A stretch of DNA of 64,000 nucleotides from Paralichthys olivaceus (taxonomy: Eukaryota > Chordata > Actinopteri > Pleuronectiformes > Paralichthyidae), in the NCBI RefSeq assembly GCF_024713975.1, contig NC_091111.1, forward strand, positions 2,851,001 to 2,915,000. Reading direction: 5' to 3'. Position numbers and translations under genes: made by a program. A model generated the notes under the pieces. That model searched no databases, was not told the DNA's origin, and saw nothing but the letters and a program-made list of their open reading frames with translations. Positions 2,909 to 27,449 of this stretch are shown in pieces; position 1 is the first letter of the stretch; each line of letters begins with the position of its first letter.

Positions 2909-3490
2909 TGTCATGACTCTTGTGTTTTGTCCTCTTTTATTGTGGACTCCTTGTTTATTATAGCTGTGTCTGCCTGTGTGTTCCTTATGTTTGGATTTGT
3001 GTTCTGAGTTTTCAGTTTTATGTTGTAGTTTTGCTCCTGGTGTGTTTTCCTTGTCCCACTCTGTGTTTCTCTCTGTGTTCCACTCTGTTTCCTGTTTTAT
3101 TTTGTAGTTTCTGCTCCTTGTGTGTTTCCCACCTGGACCTCCTGCCTTCGTTAGTTTCAACAGTTTGTCCTGTGCTACATGTCTCTAGTTTGTCATTAGT
3201 TCGGTGTGTATTTAAGTCTCTGTCCTTCCCTTGGTCTTTGTCGGTTCGTTGTCTTATTGTGTCATCATATGTGCTTGTCTCACCACCCCGTTGTTGTTTA
3301 TCCTCCCTCAAGTAAGTTCTCCAGTGTCTCCTCGTGTCTACTCTGTTTTTGCTGTGAGCATTTTTGAGGTGACTGCCTTTTGGATTTTGTTTGACCTCTG
3401 TAAAGAGCCCTGTCTTTATTGAAGGACACTTTTGGTTAAAGCCTTTTGTTCTGCATTGTTGGGTCCATGTGCTCCTCATTCCCTCTAAAA
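2909..3490 (+). mobile_element. LTR-type retroelement fossil (partial LTR)
   Basis: This T-rich stretch starts TGTCATGACTC and shares blocks in the same order with the complete LTR at 5912-6600: a 'cctgttttattttgtag' block, then 'tcattagtt', then 'gtgtatttaagtct'. It looks like an older, incomplete copy of the same LTR family. No internal coding region is attached. Long open frames across it on both strands are side effects of the pyrimidine-rich composition and are not called as genes. The right edge is approximate. Confidence 0.55.
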
Positions 3491-13451: not shown

Positions 13452-13841
13452 TTAAAGGTTCAGTGTGTAGAATTTTGTGATATCTTGTGGTGAAGTGTCA
13501 TGTTGCAGCTGAACACCCCTCACCTCACCCTCCCCTCCCGAACATTAAAAATAACCTTTGGTAGCCTTCAGTTGTAATACAAACTCACTGGCTGTTTAGA
13601 TTGTCTAGTTTGGACAACTGTAAAAAACATGGTGGCCTCCGGAGAGAGGACACCCCCCGATGTAAATATAAAGTATTGAAATCTACTTTATTTAAATATA
13701 AAGGGCCTTTTTTGGGTAAAGAAAATTACAATTCAAACAATTTAGATGAAATGAACCAGTCCAAACATCATGAAGATTATTCTAGATTGAATTTCTGCCA
13801 ATAGATCCCTTTCACCTAAATCTTACACACTGGACCTTTAA
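13452..13841. mobile_element. TTAA-flanked non-autonomous DNA transposon (MITE)
   Basis: The left end reads TTAA-AGGTTCAGTGTGTAG and the right end is the near inverse complement, CTTACACACTGGACCT-TTAA, so inverted ends of about 25 bp are bounded on both sides by TTAA. TTAA target duplication is the hallmark of piggyBac-type transposons, so this is probably a piggyBac-like MITE. It has no transposase gene. Its right-hand TTAA overlaps the first base of array unit 1, and a fragment of the same family lies after every array gene. Confidence 0.75.
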
Positions 13842-14169
13842 CAGTAATTACAATAATAAATATACATTTATAAAAACATTGAATTAAATTTTTAAATTAT
13901 TATATACATTATCTCAACAATTCCCACAATGAACAGCTCTGACGACTCGGAAATGAAAAAAAAACACTGCTCATGAACTGGAAGAAAGAACCAAACTCAA
14001 CGTGAACGACATCTGCCTTGACCAGTCGGTGACTGGAGAAAAATGGGGGGGGAGGAGAGATGGATGGAAAAGACGAGAGAGAGAAAGAGAATAGTAGATG
14101 CAAATATGTTATTAATGACAGCAGCAAAAATGTATATAATAATTATGATGATGATGACATTATTGTTGT

Positions 14170-14265
14170 CTTTCATGTTTATTTTCTTGTTTTTATTTGG
14201 CCTCTTAGTGAAGGACTTTGTTACAACTGTTTTCAAAGGTGCTTTATGAATAAAGTGATTATATT
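14170..14265 (+). repeat. Retroposon 3'-tail relic within the array unit
   Basis: The sequence 'tttcatgtttattttcttg' leading to 'caaaggtgctttatgaataaag' matches the usual 3' end of fish LINE/SINE retroposons (gtgctatataaataaag). It recurs in every unit (about 17575-17671, 20955-21050, 24312-24407), so it predates the amplification. Confidence 0.5.
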
Positions 14266-14414
14266 TACATGTCAAATTCATGTTGCAGTCAACCCTACAT
14301 GTCTCTACACTTTGCAAAGAAACGCAATATCTTCCAACTGCTTTTGACAAAAGCACTTCATAGAGTGTGAACTTGTTTCAGTCCAGTTCAGATCAAAGCC
14401 AGAACAGATCATAG

Positions 14415-14436
14415 CCAATTAACTTCTATATAAAGG
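14415..14436 (+). promoter_or_regulatory. CCAAT box and TATA box, gene copy 1
   Basis: CCAAT at 14415-14419 is followed by TATATAAAGG at 14427-14436. Transcription would be expected to start about 25-30 bp downstream, near 14458-14465, giving a leader of about 140 nt before the ATG at 14603. Two upstream ATGs (14480 and 14491) open short frames of 9 and about 39 codons; the second overlaps the main start, so translation may be damped. Spacing of promoter, leader and exon is preserved in all four units. Confidence 0.6.
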
Positions 14437-14602
14437 AGAAACATTTCTCAGCAGAATCAGACTCCAGGACCATTAGTAGATGACAGCTGCATGCGAATCC
14501 TCTCTTTGACAACGTCCCAAAACCGCCAAAGACAACTGTCAGTAGACCAGCGCTTCACGGAAAAAATACTTTGTTACATTGGATCACCTGCGTTTATCCA
14601 AC

Positions 14603-15928
14603 ATGAATAAGAATTGCTCTAGAAACAAAGTAAGTTTTGTTTTCAGCTGGAGAGACTTCAGGTTAAACTGTACTTTTATACCTCATGAAGAAACAATTAT
14701 CTTTTATTTCTTCATCTTACTTTACAGTAGTTTTGCAGACTTTAAAAGCAGACATGTGTAAATGACTAAAATGTATTAATAATCTTTCTGAATATATCTG
14801 AACTGAGGATGGGAGTGTGTTTTTACCTGTTGCATGTTTATTTGTGTCTTTCAGTCAAAGGCTCAGCTGACTGCAGAAAACACTGCTCTGTATTCAGAAA
14901 ACACTGCACTGAAAGAGCAGGCTGCAGAAAATGCTGTTATGGCTGCAGAACACACTGCTCTGCAAAAGAAGGCTGCAAAGTTTGAAGAGAGAGCTGCAGT
15001 GTACAGTATTCTGAGAAGGAAGGTGGATGATAATAATGCAGCTCTGACTGAAGAAAACACAGCTCTGAGGAAGGAGGCAGCACAAAACACTGCTCTGGCT
15101 GCAGAAATCACTGCTCTGGCTGAAGAAATCACTGCTCTGGCTGAAGAAATCACTGCTCTGGCTGCAGAAAACACTGCACTGAAAGAGCAGGCTGCAGAAA
15201 ATGCTATACTGAAAGAGCAGGCTGCAGAAAATGCAGCTCTTCCTGCAGAAATCACTGCTCTGGTTGCAGAAAACACTGCTTTGGCTACAGAAAACTCTGC
15301 TCTGGCTGTAGAAAATACTGCACTGAAAGAGCAGGCTGCAGAAAGTGCTGCTTTAGCTGCAGAAAACACTGCTCTGGTTGCAGAAAACACTGCTCTGGAT
15401 AAAGAAAACACTGCTCTGGCTGCAGAAAACACTGCACTGAAAGAGCAGGCTGCAAAGTTTGAAGAGAGAGCTGCAGTGTACAGTATTGTGAATGATAATA
15501 ATGCAGCTCTGACTGAAGAAAACACAGCTCTGAGGAAGGAGGCAGCACAAAACACTTCTCTGGCTTCAGAAATCACTGCTCTGGCAGAAGAAAACACTGC
15601 ACTGAAAAAGCAGGCTGCAGAAAATGCTAGACTGAAAGAGCAGGCTGCAAAAAATGCAGCTCTACCTGCAGAAATCACTACTCTGGTTGCAGAAAACACT
15701 GCTTTGGCTTCAGAAATCAGTGCTCTGGCAGAAGAAAACACTGCACTGAAAGAGCAGGCTGCAGAAAATCTGACGAAGGAGGCAACACAAAAGGCTGCAC
15801 CGTTACAGCAGGAAAAACTACATAGAGAAAGCAGGCTGCAGAAAATGCTGCTCTGGCTGCAGAAAAAACTGCATAGAGATAGCAGGCTGCAGAAAATGCT
15901 GCTATGGCTGCAGAAAAAACTGCAGTAA
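14603..15928 (+). CDS. Array gene copy 1: heptad-repeat coiled-coil protein, unknown family (366 aa, two exons)
   Basis: Exon 1 (14603-14629) encodes MNKNCSRNK and stops at a strong GTAAGT donor. The intron (14630-14854) ends in 'tttgtgtctttcag', and exon 2 (14855-15928) continues in phase 0. I chose this start over the in-exon ATG at 14834 because that ATG lies in the acceptor tract; the ATG at 14603 has A at -3 and a TATA box upstream. The protein is mostly 7-residue repeats such as AENTALA and EITALAE, with Leu at one core position and often Asn three residues before it, as in a dimeric leucine-zipper coiled coil. Ten-residue spacers (LKEQAAENAA type) interrupt the register. A block with KFEERAAVYSI occurs twice, 477 bp apart. 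The last 36 residues or so (two SRLQKMLLWLQKKL repeats) read the repeat DNA in a shifted frame. No signal peptide or membrane segment is evident, so it is probably cytosolic or nuclear. Function unknown; expression not shown. Confidence 0.65.
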
Positions 15929-15953
15929 AAAAGCAGTTGTATTATTTTGCCTT

Positions 15954-16060
15954 TTAAAGGTCCAATGTGTAGTATTTAGTGATATCTAGTGGTAAATTGT
16001 CATGCTGCAGCTGAATACTCACCTCTTTCTATTACTCACCTCTTTCTATACCTTCTCTGT
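15954..16060 (+). mobile_element. Fragment of the TTAA-type MITE in the 3' untranslated region
   Basis: TTAAAGGTCCAATGTGTAG and the following 'gatatctagtggtaaattgtcatgctgcagctgaa' region match the left part of the MITE at 13452-13841; the right half is missing. It begins 26 bp after the stop codon. The same fragment follows each gene copy (about 19360, 22718 and 26075). Confidence 0.7.
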
Positions 16061-16229
16061 TTCTACTCACAGCAAATTGTTCTTTTTCTCTTCATGCAAA
16101 TTTATCTTTAATAGCTGAAGATACTTCTTTTAGTTTAGGTTATGGTTTGTGACATATTGAATAAGATATTTTCTGTCTAAACTGCTTATGTTTAATTTCA
16201 GTGGAAAAAATTATCCAACACTTAATACA

Positions 16230-16235
16230 AATAAA
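16230..16235 (+). terminator. Poly(A) signal AATAAA, gene copy 1
   Basis: A canonical AATAAA lies 302 bp after the stop codon and is kept at the same place in every unit. T-rich sequence (ttttgttttatt) follows about 30 bp downstream, as expected of a cleavage/polyadenylation site. Confidence 0.5.
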
Positions 16236-16259
16236 AAACATTAGAGCAGAAACATGACT

Positions 16260-17246
16260 GAGAGAAATTTTGTTTTATTACAAAGTTCATTCAGGAAACT
16301 GAACACCCTTTCAACTAGTAGAAAATCATTTGAGAAATCATGTAAATGATGCACAGACTATGGTGAAGAAGAGATTTCTAAGTCAGAGGACGTGACCAAA
16401 CGGATTTAAATCTAAAGACAAACAAATGACACCGTAAAATCAATTAAAACATTGAATGTGTATTTAATGGTGGTCGCAACATACACCTCTTTCCCACCAG
16501 CATTATATTAAGTCCCCTGCTGTGTCATTTTTAACATGTCAGAAATGGGCCGGGAACTAATTTATCAAAAACCAACGCATCAGGAACCTTGCTGTCTTGC
16601 CAGTGTTGCTTCTTGCACGATACGAAGAAAAAAACACTGTTGTTTCTTGTTTCCAAGATATATAAAACAATTACTACACAAGCATTCCTGGTTATTTATA
16701 ATGTAATGCCTGGAAGTTCAATACATGTCTTAACGTTGTGCTGGAAAAGGTGCAGCATCAGAAGCTAGAAAGTGAGCAGAAAATGTTCAGAGCCATAAAA
16801 ACTTGTGTCTGTGTTTATGGGTGTGAGCATAGACTGTATATAACGAGGGTGTGAGTGTGTTTTCTTGACCAGTGGAAAAGAGGCTAGAGAGAATCTGGTA
16901 AAAACTGTTTATATTTAGCTGTAGACTGTTGAAATGATTGTATACCAAGAGACTGGTAAAAGCTGCAAACTGGATGACCAAATAGTTTTGGGTTCTCCCT
17001 GTTCCTGTAACACAGACCATTGAGTTTATTTTTTACAATACGTTTTATTCCAGGGTTTGTCCACTGAGTTTGTGTTGACAGTGATTGATCAACGTGAAAT
17101 GAAGAAGTGATCTGTCAGTGCAGGAAACTCGCTGCTCAGCTGTAATTCATGAACTTAAGACAATCAAAAGGTAAAAGAGAAACAGGACATTACCCAAAGT
17201 CTCATTTATTGTCTATTGTATAAAGTGAAGTAAAGGACTATTCTTG
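16260..17246. other. Array spacer between poly(A) signal and next unit
   Basis: About 1 kb with no coding signal. Short minus-strand frames here (for example 16787-17020) persist in all units only because the units are near-identical, and their length changes with the 28-bp segment. Corresponding spacers are 19660-20624, 23020-23982 and 26395-27385. Confidence 0.6.
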
Positions 17247-17820
17247 ACAGTAATTACAATAATAAATATACATTTATAAAAACATTGAATTCAATTTTTA
17301 AATTATTATATACATTATCTCAACAATTCCCACAATGAACAGCTCTGACGACTCGGAAATGGAAAAAAAACACTTCTCATGAACTGGAAGAAAGAACCAA
17401 ACTCAACGTGAACGACATCTGCCTTGACCAGTCGGTGACTGGAGAAAAATGGGGGGGGAGGAGAGATGGATGGAAAAGACGAGAGAGAGAAAGAGAATAG
17501 TAGATGCAAATATGTTATTAATGACAGCAGCAAAAATGTATATAATAATTATGATGATGATGACATTATTGTTGTCTTTCATGTTTATTTTCTTGTTTTT
17601 ATTTGGCCTCTTAGTGAAGGACTTTGTTACAACTGTTTTCAAAGGTGCTTTATGAATAAAGTGATTATATTTACATGTCAAATTCATGTTGCAGTCAACC
17701 CTACATGTCTCTACACTTTGCAAAGAAACGCAATATCTTCCAACTGCTTTCGACAAAAGCACTTCATAGAGTGTGAACTTGTTTCAGTCCAGTTCAGATC
17801 AAAGCCAGAACAGATCATAG

Positions 17821-17842
17821 CCAATTAACTTCTATATAAAGG
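17821..17842 (+). promoter_or_regulatory. CCAAT box and TATA box, gene copy 2
   Basis: CCAAT at 17821-17825 and TATATAAAGG at 17833-17842, identical to copy 1 in sequence and in distance to the ATG at 18009. Confidence 0.6.
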
Positions 17843-18008
17843 AGAAACATTTCTCAGCAGAATCAGACTCCAGGACCATTAGTAGATGACAGCTGCATGC
17901 GAATCCTCTCTTTGACAACGTCCCCAAACCGCCAAAGACAACTGTCAGTAGACCAGCGCTTCACGGAAAAAATACTTTGTTACATTGGATCACCTGCGTT
18001 TATCCAAC

Positions 18009-19334
18009 ATGAATAAGAATTGCTCTAGAAACAAAGTAAGTTTTGTTTTCAGCTGGAGAGACTTCAGGTTAAACTGTACTTTTATACCTCATGAAGAAAC
18101 AATTATCTTTTATTTCTTCATCTTACTTTACAGTAGTTTTGCAGACTTTAAAAGCAGACATGTGTAAATGACTAAAGTGTATTAATAATCGTTCTGAATA
18201 TATCTGAACTGAGGATGGGAGTGTGTTTTTACCTGTTGCATGTTTATTTGTGTCTTTCAGTCAAAGGCTCAGCTGACTGCAGAAAACACTGCTCTGTATT
18301 CAGAAAACACTGCACTGAAAGAGCAGGCTGCAGAAAATGCTGCTATGGCTGCAGAACACACTGCTCTGCAAAAGAAGGCTGCAAAGTTTGAAGAGAGAGC
18401 TGCAGTGTACAGTATTCTGAGAAGGAAGGTGGATGATAATAATGCAGCTCTGACTGAAGAAAACACAGCTCTGAGGAAGGAGGCAGCACAAAACACTGCT
18501 CTGGCTGCAGAATTCACTGCTCTGGCTGAAGAAATCACTGCTCTGGCTGAAGAAATCACTGCTCTGGCTGCAGAAAACACTGCACTGAAAGAGCAGGCTG
18601 CAGAAAATGCTACACTGAAAGAGCAGGCTGCAGAAAATGCAGCTCTTCCTGCAGAAATCACTGCTCTGGTTGCAGAAAACACTGCTTTGGCTACAGAAAA
18701 CTCTGCTCTGGCTGTAGAAAATACTGCACTGAAAGAGCAGGCTGCAGAAAGTGCTGCTTTAGCTGCAGAAAACACTGCTCTGGTTGCAGAAAACACTGCT
18801 CTGGATAAAGAAAACACTGCTCTGGCTGCAGAAAACACTGCACTGAAAGAGCAGGCTGCAAAGTTTGAAGAGAGAGCTGCAGTGTACAGTATTGTGAATG
18901 ATAATAATGCAGCTCTGACTGAAGAAAACACAGCTCTGAGGAAGGAGGCAGCACAAAACACTTCTCTGGCTTCAGAAATCACTGCTCTGCCAGAAGAAAA
19001 CACTGCACTGAAAAAGCAGGCTGCAGAAAATGCTAGACTGAAAGAGCAGGCTGCAAAAAATGCAGCTCTACCTGCAGAAATCACTACTCTGGTTGCAGAA
19101 AACACTGCTTTGGCTTCAGAAATCAGTGCTCTGACTGAAGAAAACACTGCACTGAAAGAGCAGGCTGCAGAAAATCTGACGAAGGAGGCAACACAAAAGG
19201 CTGCACCGTTACAGCAGGAAAAACTACATAGAGAAAGCAGGCTGCAGAAAATGCTGCTCTGGCTGCAGAAAAAACTGCATAGAGATAGCAGGCTGCAGAA
19301 AATGCTGCTATGGCTGCAGAAAAAACTGCAGTAA
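18009..19334 (+). CDS. Array gene copy 2: heptad-repeat coiled-coil protein (366 aa, two exons)
   Basis: Exon 1 is 18009-18035, the intron is 18036-18260 (GTAAGT...TTTCAG) and exon 2 is 18261-19334. The protein has the same length and layout as copy 1 and differs at five positions in exon 2: Val to Ala before MAAEHTAL, Ile to Phe in EITALAE, Ile to Thr in ENAILKEQ, and Ala to Pro and Ala to Thr in two later heptads. All five changed codons alter the amino acid and I found no silent change against copy 1. The Ala-to-Pro change (residues LPEEN) would locally disturb a helix. Reading frame, splice sites and the shifted-frame C-terminal tail are intact. Function unknown. Confidence 0.65.
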
Positions 19335-19635
19335 AAAAGCAGTTGTATTATTTTGCCTTTTAAAGGTCCAATGTGTAGTATTTAGTGATATCTAGTGGTA
19401 AATTGTCATGCTGCAGCTGAATACTCACCTCTTTCTATTACTCACCTCTTTCTATACCTTCTCTGTTTCTACTCACAGCAAATTGTTCTTTTTCTCTTCA
19501 TGCAAATTTATCTTTAATAGCTGAAGATACTTCTTTTAGTTTAGGTTATGGTTTGTGACATATTGAATAAGATATTTTCTGTCTAAACTGCTTATGTTTA
19601 ATTTCAGTGGAAAAAATTATCCAACACTTGATACA

Positions 19636-19641
19636 AATAAA
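19636..19641 (+). terminator. Poly(A) signal AATAAA, gene copy 2
   Basis: AATAAA in the same position relative to the stop codon as in copy 1. Confidence 0.5.
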
Positions 19642-21199
19642 GAACATTAGAGCAGAAACATGACTAAGAGAAATTTTGTTTTATTACAAAGTTCATTCAG
19701 GAAACTGAACACCCTGTCAACTAGTAGAAAATCATTTGAGAAATCATGTAAATGATGCACAGACTATGGTGAAGAAGAGATTTCTGAGTCAGAGGACGTG
19801 ACCAAACGGATTTAAATCTAAAGACAAACAAATGACACCGTAAAATCAATTAAAACATTGAATGTGTATTTAATGGTGGTCGCAACATACACCTCTTTCC
19901 CACCAGCATTATATTAAGTCCCCTGCTGTGTCATTTTTAACATGTCAGAAATGGGCCGGGAACCAATTTATCAAAAACCAACGCATCAGGAACCTTGCTG
20001 TCTTGCCAGTGTTGCTTCTTGCACGATACGAAGAAAAAAACACTGTTGTTTCTTGTTTCCAAGATATATAAAACAATTAGTACACAAGCATTCCTGGTTA
20101 TTTATAACGCAATGCCTGGAAGTTCAATACATGTCTTGACGTTGTGCTGGAAAAGGTGCAGCATCAGAAGCTAGAAAGTGAGCAGAAAATGTTCAGAGCC
20201 ATAAAAACTTGTGTCTGTGTTTATGGGTGTGAGTGTGTTTTCTTGACCAGTGGAAAAGAGGCTAGAGAGAATCTGGTAAAAACTGTTTATATTTAGCTGT
20301 AGACTGTTGAAATGATTGTATACCAAGAGACTGGTAAAAGCTGCAAACTGGATGACCAAATAGTTTTGGGTTCTCCCTGTTCCTGTAACACAGACCATTG
20401 AGTTTATTTTTTACAATACGTTTTATTCCAGGGTTTGTCCACTGAGTTTGTGTTGACAGTGATTGATCAACGTGAAATGAAGAAGTGATCTGTCAGTGCA
20501 GGAAACTCGCTGCTCAGCTGTAATTCATGAACTTAAGACAATCAAAAGGTAAAAGAGAAACAGGACATTACCCAAAGTCTCATTTATTGTCTATTGTATA
20601 AAGTGAAGTAAAGGACTATTCTTGACAGTAATTACAATAATAAATATACATTTATAAAAACATTGAATTCAATTTTTAAATTATTATATACATTATCTCA
20701 ACAATTCCCACAATGAACAGCTCTGACGACTCGGAAATGAAAAAAAAACACTTCTCATGAACTGGAAGAAAGAACCAAACTCAACGTGGACGACATCTGC
20801 CTTGACCAGTCGGTGACTGGAGAAAAATGGGGGGGGGGGGAGAGATGGATAGAAAAGACGAGAGAGAGAAAGAGAATAATAGATGCAAATATGTTATTAA
20901 TGACAGCAGCAAAAATGTATATAATAATTATGATGATGATGACATTATTGTTGTCTTTCATGTTTATTGTCTTGTTTTTATTTGGCCTCTTAGTGAAGGA
21001 CTTTGTTACAACTGTTTTCAAAGGTGCTTTATGAATAAAGTGATTATATTTACATGTCAAATTCATGTTGCAGTCAACCCTACATGTCTCTACACTTTGC
21101 AAAGAAACGCAATATCTTCCAACTGCTTTTGACAAAAGCACTTCATAGAGTGTGAACTTGTTTCAGTCCAGTTCAGATCAAAGCCAGAACAGATCATAG

Positions 21200-21221
21200 C
21201 CAATTAACTTCTATATAAAGG
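21200..21221 (+). promoter_or_regulatory. CCAAT box and TATA box, gene copy 3
   Basis: CCAAT at 21200-21204 and TATATAAAGG at 21212-21221, unchanged from copy 1. Confidence 0.6.
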
Positions 21222-21387
21222 AGAAACATTTCTCAGCAGAATCAGACTCCAGGACCATTAGTAGATGACAGCTGCATGCGAATCCTCTCTTTGACAACGT
21301 CCCCAAACCGCCAAAGACAACTGTCAGTAGACCAGCGCTTCACGGAAAAAATACTTTGTTACATTGGATCACCTGCGTTTATCCAAC

Positions 21388-22692
21388 ATGAATAAGAATT
21401 GCTCTAGAAACAAAGTAAGTTTTGTTTTCAGCTGGAGAGACTTCAGGTTAAACTGTACTTTTATACCTCATGAAGAAACAATTATCTTTTATTTCTTCAT
21501 CTTACTTTACAGTAGTTTTGCAGACTTTAAAAGCAGACATGTGTAAATGACTAAAATGTATTAATAATCTTTCTGAATATATCTGAACTGAGGATGGGAG
21601 TGTGTTTTTACCTGTTGCATGTTTATTTGTGTCTTTCAGTCAAAGGCTCAGCTGACTGCAGAAAACACTGCTCTGTATTCAGAAAACACTGCACTGAAAG
21701 AGCAGGCTGCAGAAAATGCTGTTATGGCTGCAGAACACACTGCTCTGCAAAAGAAGGCTGCAAAGTTTGAAGAGAGAGCTGCAGTGTACAGTATTCTGAG
21801 AAGGAAGGTGGATGATAATAATGCAGCTCTGACTGAAGAAAACACAGCTCTGAGGAAGGAGGCAGCACAAAACACTGCTCTGGCTGCAGAATTCACTGCT
21901 CTGGCTGAAGAAATCACTGCTCTGGCTGAAGAAATCACTGCTCTGGCTGCAGAAAACACTGCACTGAAAGAGCAGGCTGCAGAAAATGCTACACTGAAAG
22001 AGCAGGCTGCAGAAATCACTGCTCTGGTTGCAGAAAACACTGCTTTGGCTACAGAAAACTCTGCTCTGGCTGTAGAAAATACTGCACTGAAAGAGCAGGC
22101 TGCAGAAAGTGCTGCTTTAGCTGCAGAAAACACTGCTCTGGTTGCAGAAAACACTGCTCTGGATAAAGAAAACACTGCTCTGGCTGCAGAAAACACTGCA
22201 CTGAAAGAGCAGGCTGCAAAGTTTGAAGAGAGAGCTGCAGTGTACAGTATTGTGAATGATAATAATGCAGCTCTGACTGAAGAAAACACAGCTCTGAGGA
22301 AGGAGGCAGCACAAAACACTTCTCTGGCTTCAGAAATCACTGCTCTGGCAGAAGAAAACACTGCACTGAAAAAGCAGGCTGCAGAAAATGCTAGACTGAA
22401 AGAGCAGGCTGCAAAAAATGCAGCTCTACCTGCAGAAATCACTACTCTGGTTGCAGAAAACACTGCTTTGGCTTCAGAAATCAGTGCTCTGGCAGAAGAA
22501 AACACTGCACTGAAAGAGCAGGCTGCAGAAAATCTGACGAAGGAGGCAACACAAAAGGCTGCACCGTTACAGCAGGAAAAACTACATAGAGAAAGCAGGC
22601 TGCAGAAAATGCTGCTCTGGCTGCAGAAAAAACTGCATAGAGATAGCAGGCTGCAGAAAATGCTGCTATGGCTGCAGAAAAAACTGCAGTAA
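21388..22692 (+). CDS. Array gene copy 3: heptad-repeat coiled-coil protein (359 aa, two exons)
   Basis: Exon 1 is 21388-21414, the intron is 21415-21639 and exon 2 is 21640-22692. It lacks one in-frame 21-bp repeat (seven residues, the ENAALPA heptad seen in copies 1 and 2), a loss that fits slippage between two neighbouring CTGCAGAA motifs. Otherwise it carries Phe and Thr at the positions where copy 2 also differs from copy 1, and Val before MAAEHTAL as in copy 1. Promoter, splice sites, stop and poly(A) signal are all present. The predicted protein is identical to that of copy 4. Function unknown. Confidence 0.65.
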
Positions 22693-22993
22693 AAAAGCAG
22701 TTGTATTATTTTGCCTTTTAAAGGTCCAATGTGTAGTATTTAGTGATATCTAGTGGTAAATTGTCATGCTGCAGCTGAATACTCACCTCTTTCTATTACT
22801 CACCTCTTTCTATACCTTCTCTGTTTCTACTCACAGCAAATTGTTCTTTTTCTCTTCATGCAAATTTATCTTTAATAGCTGAAGATACTTCTTTTAGTTT
22901 AGGTTATGGTTTGTGACATATTGAATAAGATATTTTCTGTCTAAACTGCTTATGTTTAATTTCAGTGGAAAAAATTATCCAACACTTGAAACA

Positions 22994-22999
22994 AATAAA
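22994..22999 (+). terminator. Poly(A) signal AATAAA, gene copy 3
   Basis: AATAAA in the conserved position, about 300 bp past the stop codon. Confidence 0.5.
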
Positions 23000-24556
23000 G
23001 AACATTAGAGCAGAAACATGACTAAGAGAAATTTTGTTTTATTACAAAGTTCATTCAGGAAACTGAACACCCTGTCAACTCGTAGAAAATCATTTGAGAA
23101 ATCATGTAAATGATGCACAGACTATGGTGAAGAAGAGATTTCTGAGTCAGAGGACGTGACCAAACGGATTTAAATCTAAAGACAAACAAATGACACCGTA
23201 AAATCAATTAAAACATTGAATGTGTATTTAATGGTGGTCGCAACATACACCTCTTTCCCACCAGCATTATATTAAGTCCCCTGCTGTGTCATTTTTAACA
23301 TGTCAGAAATGGGCCGGGAACTAATTTATCAAAAACCAACGCATCAGGAACCTTGCTGTCTTGCCAGTGTTGCTTCTTGCACGATACGAAGAAAAAAACA
23401 CTGTTGTTTCTTGTTTCCAAGATATATAAAACAATTAGTACACAAGCATTCCTGGTTATTTATAACGCAATGCCTGGAAGTTCAATACATGTCTTGACGT
23501 TGTGCTGGAAAAGGTGCAGCATCAGAAGCTAGAAAGTGAGCAGAAAATGTTCAGAGCCATAAAAACTTGTGTCTGTGTTTATGGGTGTGAGTGTGTTTTC
23601 TTGACCAGTGGAAAAGAGGCTAGAGAGAATCTGGTAAAAACTGTTTATATTTAGCTGTAGACTGTTGAAATGATTGTATACCAAGAGACTGGTAAAAGCT
23701 GCAAACTGGATGACCAAATAGTTTTGGGTTCTCCCTGTTCCTGTAACACAGACCATTGAGTTTATTTTTTACAATACGTTTTATTCCAGGGTTTGTCCAC
23801 TGAGTTTGTGTTGACAGTGATTGATCAACGTGAAATGAAGAAGTGATCTGTCAGTGCAGGAAACTCGCTGCTCAGCTGTAATTCAGGAACTTAAGACAAT
23901 CAAAAGGTAAAAGAGAAACAGGACATTACCCAAAGTCTCATTTATTGTCTATTGTATAAAGTGAAGTAAAGGACTATTCTTGACAGTAATTACAATAATA
24001 AATATACATTTATAAAAACATTGAATTCAATTTTTAAATTATTATATACATTATCTCAACAATTCCCACAATGAACAGCTCTGACGACTCGGAAATGAAA
24101 AAAAAACACTTCTCATGAACTGGAAGAAAGAACCAAACTCAACGTGGACGACATCTGCCTTGACCAGTCGGTGACTGGAGAAAAATGGGGGGGGGGGAGA
24201 GATGGATAGAAAAGACGAGAGAGAGAAAGAGAATAATAGATGCAAATATGTTAATAATGACAGTAGCAAAAATGTATATAATAATTATGATGATGATGAC
24301 ATTATTGTTGTCTTTCATGTTTATTGTCTTGTTTTTATTTGGCCTCTTAGTGAAGGACTTTGTTACAACTGTTTTCAAAGGTGCTTTATGAATAAAGTGA
24401 TTATATTTACATGTCAAATTCATGTTGCAGTCAACCCTACATGTCTCTACACTTTGCAAAGAAACGCAATATCTTCCAACTGCTTTTGACAAAAGCACTT
24501 CATAGAGTGTGAACTTGTTTCAGTCCAGTTCAGATCAAAGCCAGAACAGATCATAG

Positions 24557-24578
24557 CCAATTAACTTCTATATAAAGG
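24557..24578 (+). promoter_or_regulatory. CCAAT box and TATA box, gene copy 4
   Basis: CCAAT at 24557-24561 and TATATAAAGG at 24569-24578, unchanged from copy 1. Confidence 0.6.
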
Positions 24579-24744
24579 AGAAACATTTCTCAGCAGAATC
24601 AGACTCCAGGACCATTAGTAGATGACAGCTGCATGCGAATCCTCTCTTTGACAACGTCCCCAAACCGCCAAAGACAACTGTCAGTAGACCAGCGCTTCAC
24701 GGAAAAAATACTTTGTTACATTGGATCACCTGCGTTTATCCAAC

Positions 24745-26049
24745 ATGAATAAGAATTGCTCTAGAAACAAAGTAAGTTTTGTTTTCAGCTGGAGAGACTT
24801 CAGGTTAAACTGTACTTTTATACCTCATGAAGAAACAATTATCTTTTATTTCTTCATCTTACTTTACAGTAGTTTTGCAGACTTTAAAAGCAGACATGTG
24901 TAAATGACTAAAATGTATTAATAATCTTTCTGAATATATCTGAACTGAGGATGGGAGTGTGTTTTTACCTGTTGCATGTTTATTTGTGTCTTTCAGTCAA
25001 AGGCTCAGCTGACTGCAGAAAACACTGCTCTGTATTCAGAAAACACTGCACTGAAAGAGCAGGCTGCAGAAAATGCTGTTATGGCTGCAGAACACACTGC
25101 TCTGCAAAAGAAGGCTGCAAAGTTTGAAGAGAGAGCTGCAGTGTACAGTATTCTGAGAAGGAAGGTGGATGATAATAATGCAGCTCTGACTGAAGAAAAC
25201 ACAGCTCTGAGGAAGGAGGCAGCACAAAACACTGCTCTGGCTGCAGAATTCACTGCTCTGGCTGAAGAAATCACTGCTCTGGCTGAAGAAATCACTGCTC
25301 TGGCTGCAGAAAACACTGCACTGAAAGAGCAGGCTGCAGAAAATGCTACACTGAAAGAGCAGGCTGCAGAAATCACTGCTCTGGTTGCAGAAAACACTGC
25401 TTTGGCTACAGAAAACTCTGCTCTGGCTGTAGAAAATACTGCACTGAAAGAGCAGGCTGCAGAAAGTGCTGCTTTAGCTGCAGAAAACACTGCTCTGGTT
25501 GCAGAAAACACTGCTCTGGATAAAGAAAACACTGCTCTGGCTGCAGAAAACACTGCACTGAAAGAGCAGGCTGCAAAGTTTGAAGAGAGAGCTGCAGTGT
25601 ACAGTATTGTGAATGATAATAATGCAGCTCTGACTGAAGAAAACACAGCTCTGAGGAAGGAGGCAGCACAAAACACTTCTCTGGCTTCAGAAATCACTGC
25701 TCTGGCAGAAGAAAACACTGCACTGAAAAAGCAGGCTGCAGAAAATGCTAGACTGAAAGAGCAGGCTGCAAAAAATGCAGCTCTACCTGCAGAAATCACT
25801 ACTCTGGTTGCAGAAAACACTGCTTTGGCTTCAGAAATCAGTGCTCTGGCAGAAGAAAACACTGCACTGAAAGAGCAGGCTGCAGAAAATCTGACGAAGG
25901 AGGCAACACAAAAGGCTGCACCGTTACAGCAGGAAAAACTACATAGAGAAAGCAGGCTGCAGAAAATGCTGCTCTGGCTGCAGAAAAAACTGCATAGAGA
26001 TAGCAGGCTGCAGAAAATGCTGCTATGGCTGCAGAAAAAACTGCAGTAA
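24745..26049 (+). CDS. Array gene copy 4: heptad-repeat coiled-coil protein (359 aa, two exons)
   Basis: Exon 1 is 24745-24771, the intron is 24772-24996 and exon 2 is 24997-26049. By reading, the predicted protein is identical to copy 3, including the missing seven-residue repeat, which points to a very recent common origin for the 5' and coding parts of units 3 and 4. Downstream it has an extra 17-bp repeat and the 28-bp spacer segment, so its 3' side resembles copy 1. All gene signals appear intact. Function unknown; with four intact copies, dosage may matter, but that is inference. Confidence 0.65.
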
Positions 26050-26367
26050 AAAAGCAGTTGTATTATTTTGCCTTTTAAAGGTCCAATGTGTAGTATTTAG
26101 TGATATCTAGTGGTAAATTGTCATGCTGCAGCTGAATACTCACCTCTTTCTATTACTCACCTCTTTCTATTACTCACCTCTTTCTATACCTTCTCCGTTT
26201 CTACTCACAGCAAATTGTTCTTTTTCTCTTCATGCTAATTTATCTTTAATAGCTGAAGATACTTCTTTTAGTTTAAGTTATGGTTTGTGACATATTGAAT
26301 AAGATATTTTCTGTCTAAACTGCTTATGTTTAATTTCAGTGGAAAAAATGATCCAACACTTGATACA

Positions 26368-26373
26368 AATAAA
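26368..26373 (+). terminator. Poly(A) signal AATAAA, gene copy 4
   Basis: AATAAA in the conserved position. The stop-to-signal distance is longer because of the extra 17-bp repeat. Confidence 0.5.
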
Positions 26374-27449
26374 AACATTAGAGCAGAAACATGACTAAGA
26401 GAAATTTTGTTTTATTACAAAGTTCATTCAGGAAACTGAACCCCCTTTCAACTAGTAGAAAATCATTTGAGAAATCATGTAAATGATGCGCAGACTATGG
26501 TGAAGAAGAGATTTCTGAGTCAGAGGACGTGACCAAACGGATTTAAATCTAAAGACAAACAAATGACACCGTAAAATCAATTAAAACATTGAATGTGTAT
26601 TTAATGGTGGTCGCAACATACACCTCTTTCCCACCAGCATTATATTAAGTCCCCTGCTGTGTCATTTTTAACATGTCAGAAATGGGCCTGGAACTAATTT
26701 ATCAAAAACCAACGCATCAGGAACCTTGCTGTCTTGCCAGTGTTGCTTCTTGCACGATACGAAGAAAAAAACACTGTTGTTTCTTGTTTCCAAGATATAT
26801 AAAACAATTACTACACAAGCATTCCTGGTTATTTATAATGTAATGCCTGGAAATTCAATACATGTCTTAACGTTGTGCTGGAAAAGGTGCAGCATCAGAA
26901 GCTAGAAAGTGAGCAGAAAATGTTCAGAGCCATAAAAACTTGTGTCTGTGTTTATGGGTGTGAGCATAGACTGTATATAAAGAGGGTGTGAGTGTGTTTT
27001 CTTGACCAGTGGAAAAGAGGCTAGAGAGAATCTGGTAAAAACTGTTTATATTTAGCTGTAGACTGTTGAAATGATTGTATACCAAGAGACTGGTAAAAGC
27101 TGCAAACTGGATGACCAAATAGTTTTGGGTTCTCCCTGTTCCTGTAACACAGACCATTGAGTTTATTTTTTACAATACGTTTTATTCCAGGGTTTGTCCA
27201 CTGAGTTTGTGTTGACAGTGATTGATCAACGTGAAATGAAGAAGTGATCTGTCAGTGCAGGATACTCGCTGCTCAGCTGTAATTCAGGAACTTAAGACAA
27301 TCAAAAGGTAAAAGAGAAACAGGACATTACCCAAAGTCTCATTTATTGTCTATTGTATAAAGTGAAGTAAAGGACTATTCTTGACCGACCTGATGAACAA
27401 AGAGATAAGTGGGCTCTATAAAGAGTACGAAGATAATCATCTGCATCAT

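Follow-up and report, generated by a model that had tools for sequence, protein, structure and literature searches.

A putative intron-bearing coiled-coil gene in a recent four-copy tandem array of Paralichthys olivaceus, and its large family

The golgins (GOLGA) of primates are a lineage-amplified family in segmental duplications; both they and the POTE proteins contain coiled-coil parts, in company with ankyrin or Golgi-targeting parts. In the excerpts of the comparison literature used here (PubMed Central (PMC) papers PMC9122973, PMC13431229, PMC7073761 and PMC2657112), POTE appears likewise as a lineage-amplified family in segmental duplications (PMC7073761), the finTRIM genes of teleosts as a large fish family that expanded by duplication and diversified (PMC2657112), and the type I antifreeze genes of flounders as tandemly amplified genes for an Ala-rich helix (PMC9122973). 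We compared with these systems a locus in 64,000 nucleotides of Paralichthys olivaceus (contig C19, positions 2851001–2915000; hereafter the window), where four near-identical units follow each other in tandem, each with a predicted two-exon gene for a heptad-repeat coiled-coil protein. We put the probability that a real protein-coding gene with an intron has recently been amplified here into four tandem copies, as a small branch of a large coiled-coil family, at roughly 0.58. The genome searched comprises 588 Mb in 25 contigs.

The array consists of four direct copies at 13842–27385, with lengths between 3,358 and 3,406 bp (Table 1). Pairwise comparison of the units revealed 17–31 substitutions per 3,356–3,384 aligned bases (0.5–0.9%), and indels of 17, 21 and 28 bp distinguish them; units 1 to 4 carry 8, 9, 2 and 11 private substitutions, respectively. 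An exact assembly duplicate is ruled out by these private substitutions and indels of each unit. In every unit, the CCAAT box (14415, 17821, 21200 and 24557) and the TATA box (14427, 17833, 21212 and 24569) lie 188 bp and 176 bp upstream of the ATG, followed by a 27-nt exon 1 of nine codons running up to GTAAGT, an intron of 225 bp, an exon 2 of 1,053–1,074 nt and a poly(A)-type signal, AATAAA (16230, 19636, 22994 and 26368). The spliced frames of genes 1 to 4 are all open in phase 0, with 366, 366, 359 and 359 amino acids (aa), exon 2 remains open to a stop common to all four copies, and copies 3 and 4 have one 21-bp repeat unit fewer. The first-pass annotation of this DNA had described four near-identical units with this anatomy and four open frames spliced in phase 0, and had taken them for a recent tandem amplification of a gene for a heptad coiled coil; at the level of sequence, all of this holds. 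Searches for known RNA families (Rfam, gathering score) and for tRNAs found none in the window.

Searching the same genome by DNA and by protein, we found the window gene type at C5:4.62–4.63 Mb (two copies), C17:15.01 Mb and C3:17.54 Mb, and at C5:8.63 Mb with two intact copies and at least one broken copy. A longer sister type shares 77–78% DNA identity with the window type from the TATA region to the intron, and the ATG, GTAAGT and TTTCAG followed by TCA are common to both types. The sister genes (an array at C5:25.0–27.4 Mb, and copies on C1, C8, C9, C12, C16 and C17) resemble the window genes in their homologous 5' untranslated region, short exon 1, intron and heptads, as well as in the CCAAT/TATA module, which is present, followed by extra bases, in the array copies read. 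They differ in having an N-terminal motif of their own (SFEQMQSHDTAQNNGCSVTKMLKALRQALLDSKREN) and a C-terminal domain ending in FSFLFPCWRSS, and two copies on C12 are without the intron; in the window, neither the N-terminal NGCSVTKMLKALRQALLDSKREN motif nor the FPCWRSS domain was found (tblastn, E up to 0.01). Matches to the sister C-terminal domain number at least 72 on C5:25.04–27.38 Mb (2.3 Mb) and at least 11 off C5, on C1 (four), C12 (two), C16 (two), C8, C9 and C17, with a stop in 5 of the 83 matches listed. Note that these counts (72 + 11) were made by hand and are lower bounds, 150 of 224 candidates having been scored. By homology, the window array forms one small branch within a family whose loci, with broken copies counted, number at least 90, and the window type, placed by its DNA rather than by N- or C-terminal domains, is a derived branch of the sister family. 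The many recent tandem and dispersed copies with kept frames, some broken copies among them, are as in lineage-amplified coiled-coil families. The youth that had been proposed for the family thus applies to this array; the family itself is older and large, with relatives on C5, C17 and C3 and at least 83 sister matches.

The body of the predicted protein contains about 28% Ala (24–30% across the window-type models, which have 0–1 Gly). Leu occupies heptad position d in 33 of 44 cases, and position a is Asn in 24 and Ile in 7 of 47, in a register fitted to such residues, and the autocorrelation of Leu reaches 0.60 at lag 7. Heptads with a hydrophobic d and an Asn or hydrophobic a, as found here, are those of a parallel dimeric coiled coil, and Asn at a is a mark of parallel dimers. 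With a helix rise of 0.15 nm per residue, the window protein is probably a parallel dimeric coiled coil with the shape of a rod of about 45 nm. The last 37 residues (KLHRESRLQKMLLWLQKKLHRDSRLQKMLLWLQKKLQ) are encoded by the same repeat DNA (GCTGCAGAAAATGCTGCT...) in another frame, and this tail has a net charge of +7 to +10, versus –7 to –24 for the body, in all ten window-type models. The 18-mer with the highest moment lies within the tail in each window-type protein, and the tail is kept in varied form in C17 and C3. Where the window type has this tail, the sister type ends in a polybasic stretch and the cysteine-bearing hydrophobic FSFLFPCWRSS. The cationic amphipathic helix could be a candidate dock to membranes or other acidic surfaces; the C-terminus of either type may bind membranes.

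Analysis of the gene signals across loci revealed that they are largely kept. In a first alignment of 16 members, the ATG and GTAAG were present in 14, the acceptor TTTCAG/TC in all 16, and the equally spaced CCAAT and TATA boxes in 12, with CCAGT in C5_4.6, CCCAT in C3 and no TATA in C9_21 among the others. Eight later sister loci retained the ATG with GTAAGT in six cases and the acceptor in six, which brings the members with both start codon and 5' splice site to 20 of the 24 aligned, at DNA divergences reaching about 22%. At C5:8.63 Mb, the broken copy has lost its ATG, 5' splice site and frame, and the copy at C9:21.15 Mb its ATG and frame, with stops present. All ten fully read window-type models are open (244–424 aa). 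In 14 of 14 spliced models, the sense frame of exon 2 contains no stop, and the other two sense frames contain 6–24 stops each (17–19 in the window copies); a simple open-repeat artefact is rejected by these frame controls. One antisense frame is nearly open (one stop in the window copies, 0–6 across the 14 models), so that a long open reading frame alone is weak evidence here. The 14 models comprise ten of the window type and four of the sister type, one of the latter with a changed C-terminus. Outside this set are the broken C5_8.6c and C9_21, incomplete second readings in L009 and L012 (genes read whole elsewhere), the fragments or diverged loci L015–L017, L019, L020, L022 and L050, the intronless C12 loci, and the later sister loci L053–L059.

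Residues at the coiled-coil core are also changed less than others. With win1 as the reference, 25 of 242 core a/d residues differ, compared with 142 of 606 elsewhere (Fisher p 9e-6), and change at third codon positions was more frequent at the core (35/242 vs 54/606); with C3 as the reference, the residue counts are 27/188 and 128/501 (p 0.0015). For the sister C-terminal domain, ten sequences gave a median ratio of nonsynonymous to synonymous change (dN/dS) of 0.34 over 42 of 45 pairs, the remaining three pairs being without synonymous change. Our best guess is that the rods would act as a fast-evolving scaffold, with the surface free to change and the core kept.

A number of results weigh against a working gene in the window. 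The core test with C17 as the reference gave 44/193 vs 145/495 (p 0.088), and the pairs in all core tests share ancestry and are not independent. Pairwise dN/dS between loci of the window branch is 0.56–0.86, and a codon model over 166 shared columns gave an omega of 1.19, indistinguishable from 1 (lnL, the log likelihood, –1253.57 vs –1254.07); the sister N-terminal motif (34 codons) has a median dN/dS of 0.58 over 39 pairs. Twelve tail codons compared exhibited no clear constraint (pooled proportions of nonsynonymous and synonymous differences, pN 0.091 and pS 0.124), and the tested 18-mer was picked as that of highest moment, yet 18–61 of 2,000 shuffles reached its moment. In-phase indels are expected from repeat units of 21 and 30 bp. 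Among the eight later sister loci, an intact CCAAT/TATA pair is found in one only (L060), and in most it is altered or absent. The sister copy at C17:13.44 Mb keeps the ATG and both splice sites with a broken frame, C1:10.22 Mb has lost the acceptor and C9:6.09 Mb the 5' end with exon 2 open in both, and C9:9.95 Mb is open only with an altered C-terminus. Of the later loci, L053, L055 and L056 combine the ATG, GTAAGT and the acceptor with an exon 2 that is open; in L059 the sites are present but the frame is broken, L057 has lost the acceptor, L058 has lost the 5' end and L054 is without a long frame. Given this uncoupled decay of sister loci, an open exon 2 is no proof of a working gene.

These results bear on the alternative that the four copies are recent non-functional by-products of a functional sister family, carried as repeat or transposon passengers and open because they are young and their repeat is poor in stops, which we consider somewhat unlikely. 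The dN/dS of the window branch near 1 is what this alternative would predict, yet its frames are open across loci that differ by 9–23% in coding DNA. The approximately 180 substitutions on the 166 codon columns (tree length 0.36 × 498 sites), about 3.1% of them stop-making, would be expected to produce 5–6 stops; the ten intact copies have none, with the broken C5_8.6c standing outside that tree. Sister loci that have lost the acceptor or the 5' end and are still open in exon 2 fit passenger copies as well, but the ATG and splice sites have been preserved, and changes are fewer among core residues. The absence from the window searches of both sister terminal domains, and the TTAA element directly behind the stop codon (see below), remain on the side of non-functional copies. 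Against this background, we retain a recent array of a real protein-coding gene as the preferred reading.

Diversifying selection on the family in an arms race, with an antiviral, gamete-recognition or meiotic-drive role, is clearly improbable in our estimate. A non-repeat anchor segment (45 codons, five sequences) gave an omega of 2.89, with 2 delta lnL of 4.3 versus omega 1, and its pooled pN of 0.111 exceeds the pS of 0.052; however, IQ-TREE warned that this model has more parameters than sites, gene conversion may link the two anchor copies per gene, and the 166-column alignment is indistinguishable from omega 1. Very high copy number would also suit an arms race, as would an exon 2 that evolves faster than the intron and promoter: between C19 and C5, the intron and promoter differ by 3–4%, and exon 2 has a dS of 0.08–0.16 and a dN of 0.06–0.11. 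The faster exon 2 may in part be an effect of repeat misalignment, and in part of gene conversion or of constraint in the 5' region. Across the family, the intron is conserved above exon 2, notably around TTTCTTCATCTTACTTTAC.GTAGTTTT.CAGACTTTAAAAGCAGAC, where the window has no Rfam match; the intron (14630–14854 and its relatives) may contain a candidate regulatory element.

Comparison with known families revealed likenesses of general make-up. At E up to 1, the window protein had matches in 15 Pfam families, five of them above the cut-offs (bZIP_1, TSC22, ZapB, Shugoshin_N and HALZ), all unrelated coiled-coil models. Sequence searches of PDB with the window protein and the sister C-terminus gave no matches, NCBIfam gave none at its cut-off (best 37.9 bits vs 70), and no description of the family was found in open-licence PMC, in agreement with the earlier view of the protein as unrecognised. 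With POTE and GOLGA, the Pfam and PDB searches revealed no relation, and the ankyrin or Golgi-targeting parts are not seen in the window type. RING and B-box need many Cys/His, whereas window-type proteins have 1–2 Cys, and no TRIM or RING is among the 15 Pfam families listed; membership of finTRIM is rejected on these grounds. The leucine-zipper heptads are shared with bZIP factors (Pfam PF00170, E 2e-12), but the basic DNA-binding motif, in a pattern that we take to be that of PROSITE, occurs in 0 of 14 models, and bZIP membership is likewise rejected. An Ala-rich antifreeze-like helix, dosage-amplified as in flounders, is hardly credible despite the fish-type genome, the high Ala and scarce Gly, and the tandem units with promoters, since the period is the heptad and the 11-residue Thr/Ala repeat of type I antifreeze proteins is absent (Thr 0.35 at lag 7, 0.02 at lag 11, with Leu also at lag 7), the body is negative and its Ala is far below theirs. 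Neither the dosage selection nor the undescribed system that the first-pass annotation had envisaged is borne out. The gene structure is ordinary-looking and, on this sequence, that of a real gene in a large, apparently unnamed family, of a known kind with a new sequence.

The history of the array can be partly read in its DNA. The order gene, TTAA element, start of the next unit is found at C5:8.63 Mb and at one of the two 4.63-Mb genes, and an incomplete TTAA element lies behind the other, 4.62-Mb gene on C5. In the window, the element is complete and abuts unit 1 directly. The C5 homology of unit 1 ends rightward at GTGTATTTAA, the exact point where the C5 copy enters the element, and the letters at GTGTATTTAA are the same in the other three window units. 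On C3, the site behind the gene is without an element, CCTTTTAA being joined to CAATAATTACAAT. The stretch 13452–16467 corresponds to one permuted C5 unit with TTAA edges, which suggests that a TTAA target on C19 received a single unit. One C5-type array unit, possibly in the form of a circle, would thus have moved to C19 at a TTAA site; alternatively, the block may have been flanked by two elements, the right one of which was later lost by precise excision. The four-fold amplification would then have included about 780 bp of local DNA through a join at a 2-bp AC microhomology. A composite TTAA element without a gene, consisting of the stretch behind the gene and the 390-bp element, was observed at C11:387 kb (L015).

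Table 1 Features of the array in the window (positions count from the first letter of the window)
Feature	Position	Strand	Remarks
TTAA element, 390 bp, inverted ends (TTAAAGGTYCAGTGTGTA)	13452..13841		95.9% identity with the intergenic element of C5:8.63 Mb
Block matching a single C5-type array unit in circular permutation	13452..16467	+	TTAA at both breakpoints
Part of unit 1 (about 780 bp) with no homology to the C5, C17, C3 or C11 loci compared	16468..17247	+	Elsewhere in the genome, partial repeat matches only
Tandem unit 1	13842..17247	+	3,406 bp
Tandem unit 2	17248..20625	+	3,378 bp
Tandem unit 3	20626..23983	+	3,358 bp
Tandem unit 4	23984..27385	+	3,402 bp
CCAAT and TATA module, gene 1	14415..14434	+	Equal-spaced in 12/16 members of the first alignment
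Gene 1, exon 1 (MNKNCSRNK)	14603..14629	+
Gene 1, intron (GTAAGT...TTTCAG)	14630..14854	+	Between loci more conserved than exon 2
Gene 1, exon 2 (predicted heptad coiled coil)	14855..15928	+	Whole protein 366 aa
Gene 1, C-terminal 37 codons (cationic amphipathic tail)	15815..15925	+	Heptad repeat DNA in another frame
Gene 2, 366 aa	18009..19334 (exons 18009-18035, 18261-19334)	+
Gene 3, 359 aa	21388..22692 (exons 21388-21414, 21640-22692)	+
Gene 4, 359 aa	24745..26049 (exons 24745-24771, 24997-26049)	+

In the sister array at C5:25.04–27.38 Mb (L018, L047–L049 and L061), matches are often paired, about 5.2–5.6 kb apart. The array apparently contains two forms, one with the heptad exon continuous with the C-terminus, and the other with the N-terminal motif separated by about 7.5 kb from a 185–187-aa frame downstream, a pairing deduced from spacing. 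Behind the sister genes lies an antisense PH-domain exon (Pfam PF00169, E 4e-9; L061:180–509, minus strand), with 74 matches, 72 on C5 and two behind C12 copies, of which 18 contain one in-frame TAA. The gap between gene and PH exon was 192–382 bp in seven of eight pairs compared by place, and 2.3 kb in one; tblastn found no PH-domain exon stretch in the window. Minus-strand open reading frames adjoin the sister gene in L018 and presumably resemble a hAT/ZMYM-like transposase, one 1.2-kb stretch of them having given no Pfam match. The two intronless copies on C12, L046 (6.658 Mb) and L060 (6.652 Mb), have frames of 446 and 401 aa; their CCAAT/TATA promoter is retained, and an in-frame deletion has removed the intron together with edges of both exons. 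Genomic deletion therefore fits better, and an origin as processed retrocopies is rejected. No relative of the sister protein was found in viral contigs.

A bolder combination, which we regard as a long shot, would make this an undescribed vertebrate coiled-coil family that has at least 90 loci, most of them within a single 2.3-Mb array which also contains antisense PH-domain exons in similar number, and that spreads from chromosome to chromosome in TTAA-bounded array units. Its derived branch would have exchanged a membrane-type C-terminus for a cationic tail made from its own repeat, with the surface diversifying and the core kept, as a rapidly evolving scaffold in conflict (defence or drive). 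The four-copy array is a minor part of the family, and of the two arrays the 2.3-Mb sister array is the greater surprise. If expressed, these loci would constitute a large, apparently unnamed gene family whose amplification history is readable in its DNA, a clear case of a repeat-coded protein with a new C-terminus acquired from its own repeat in another frame, and a clear case of interchromosomal movement of an array unit at TTAA sites.

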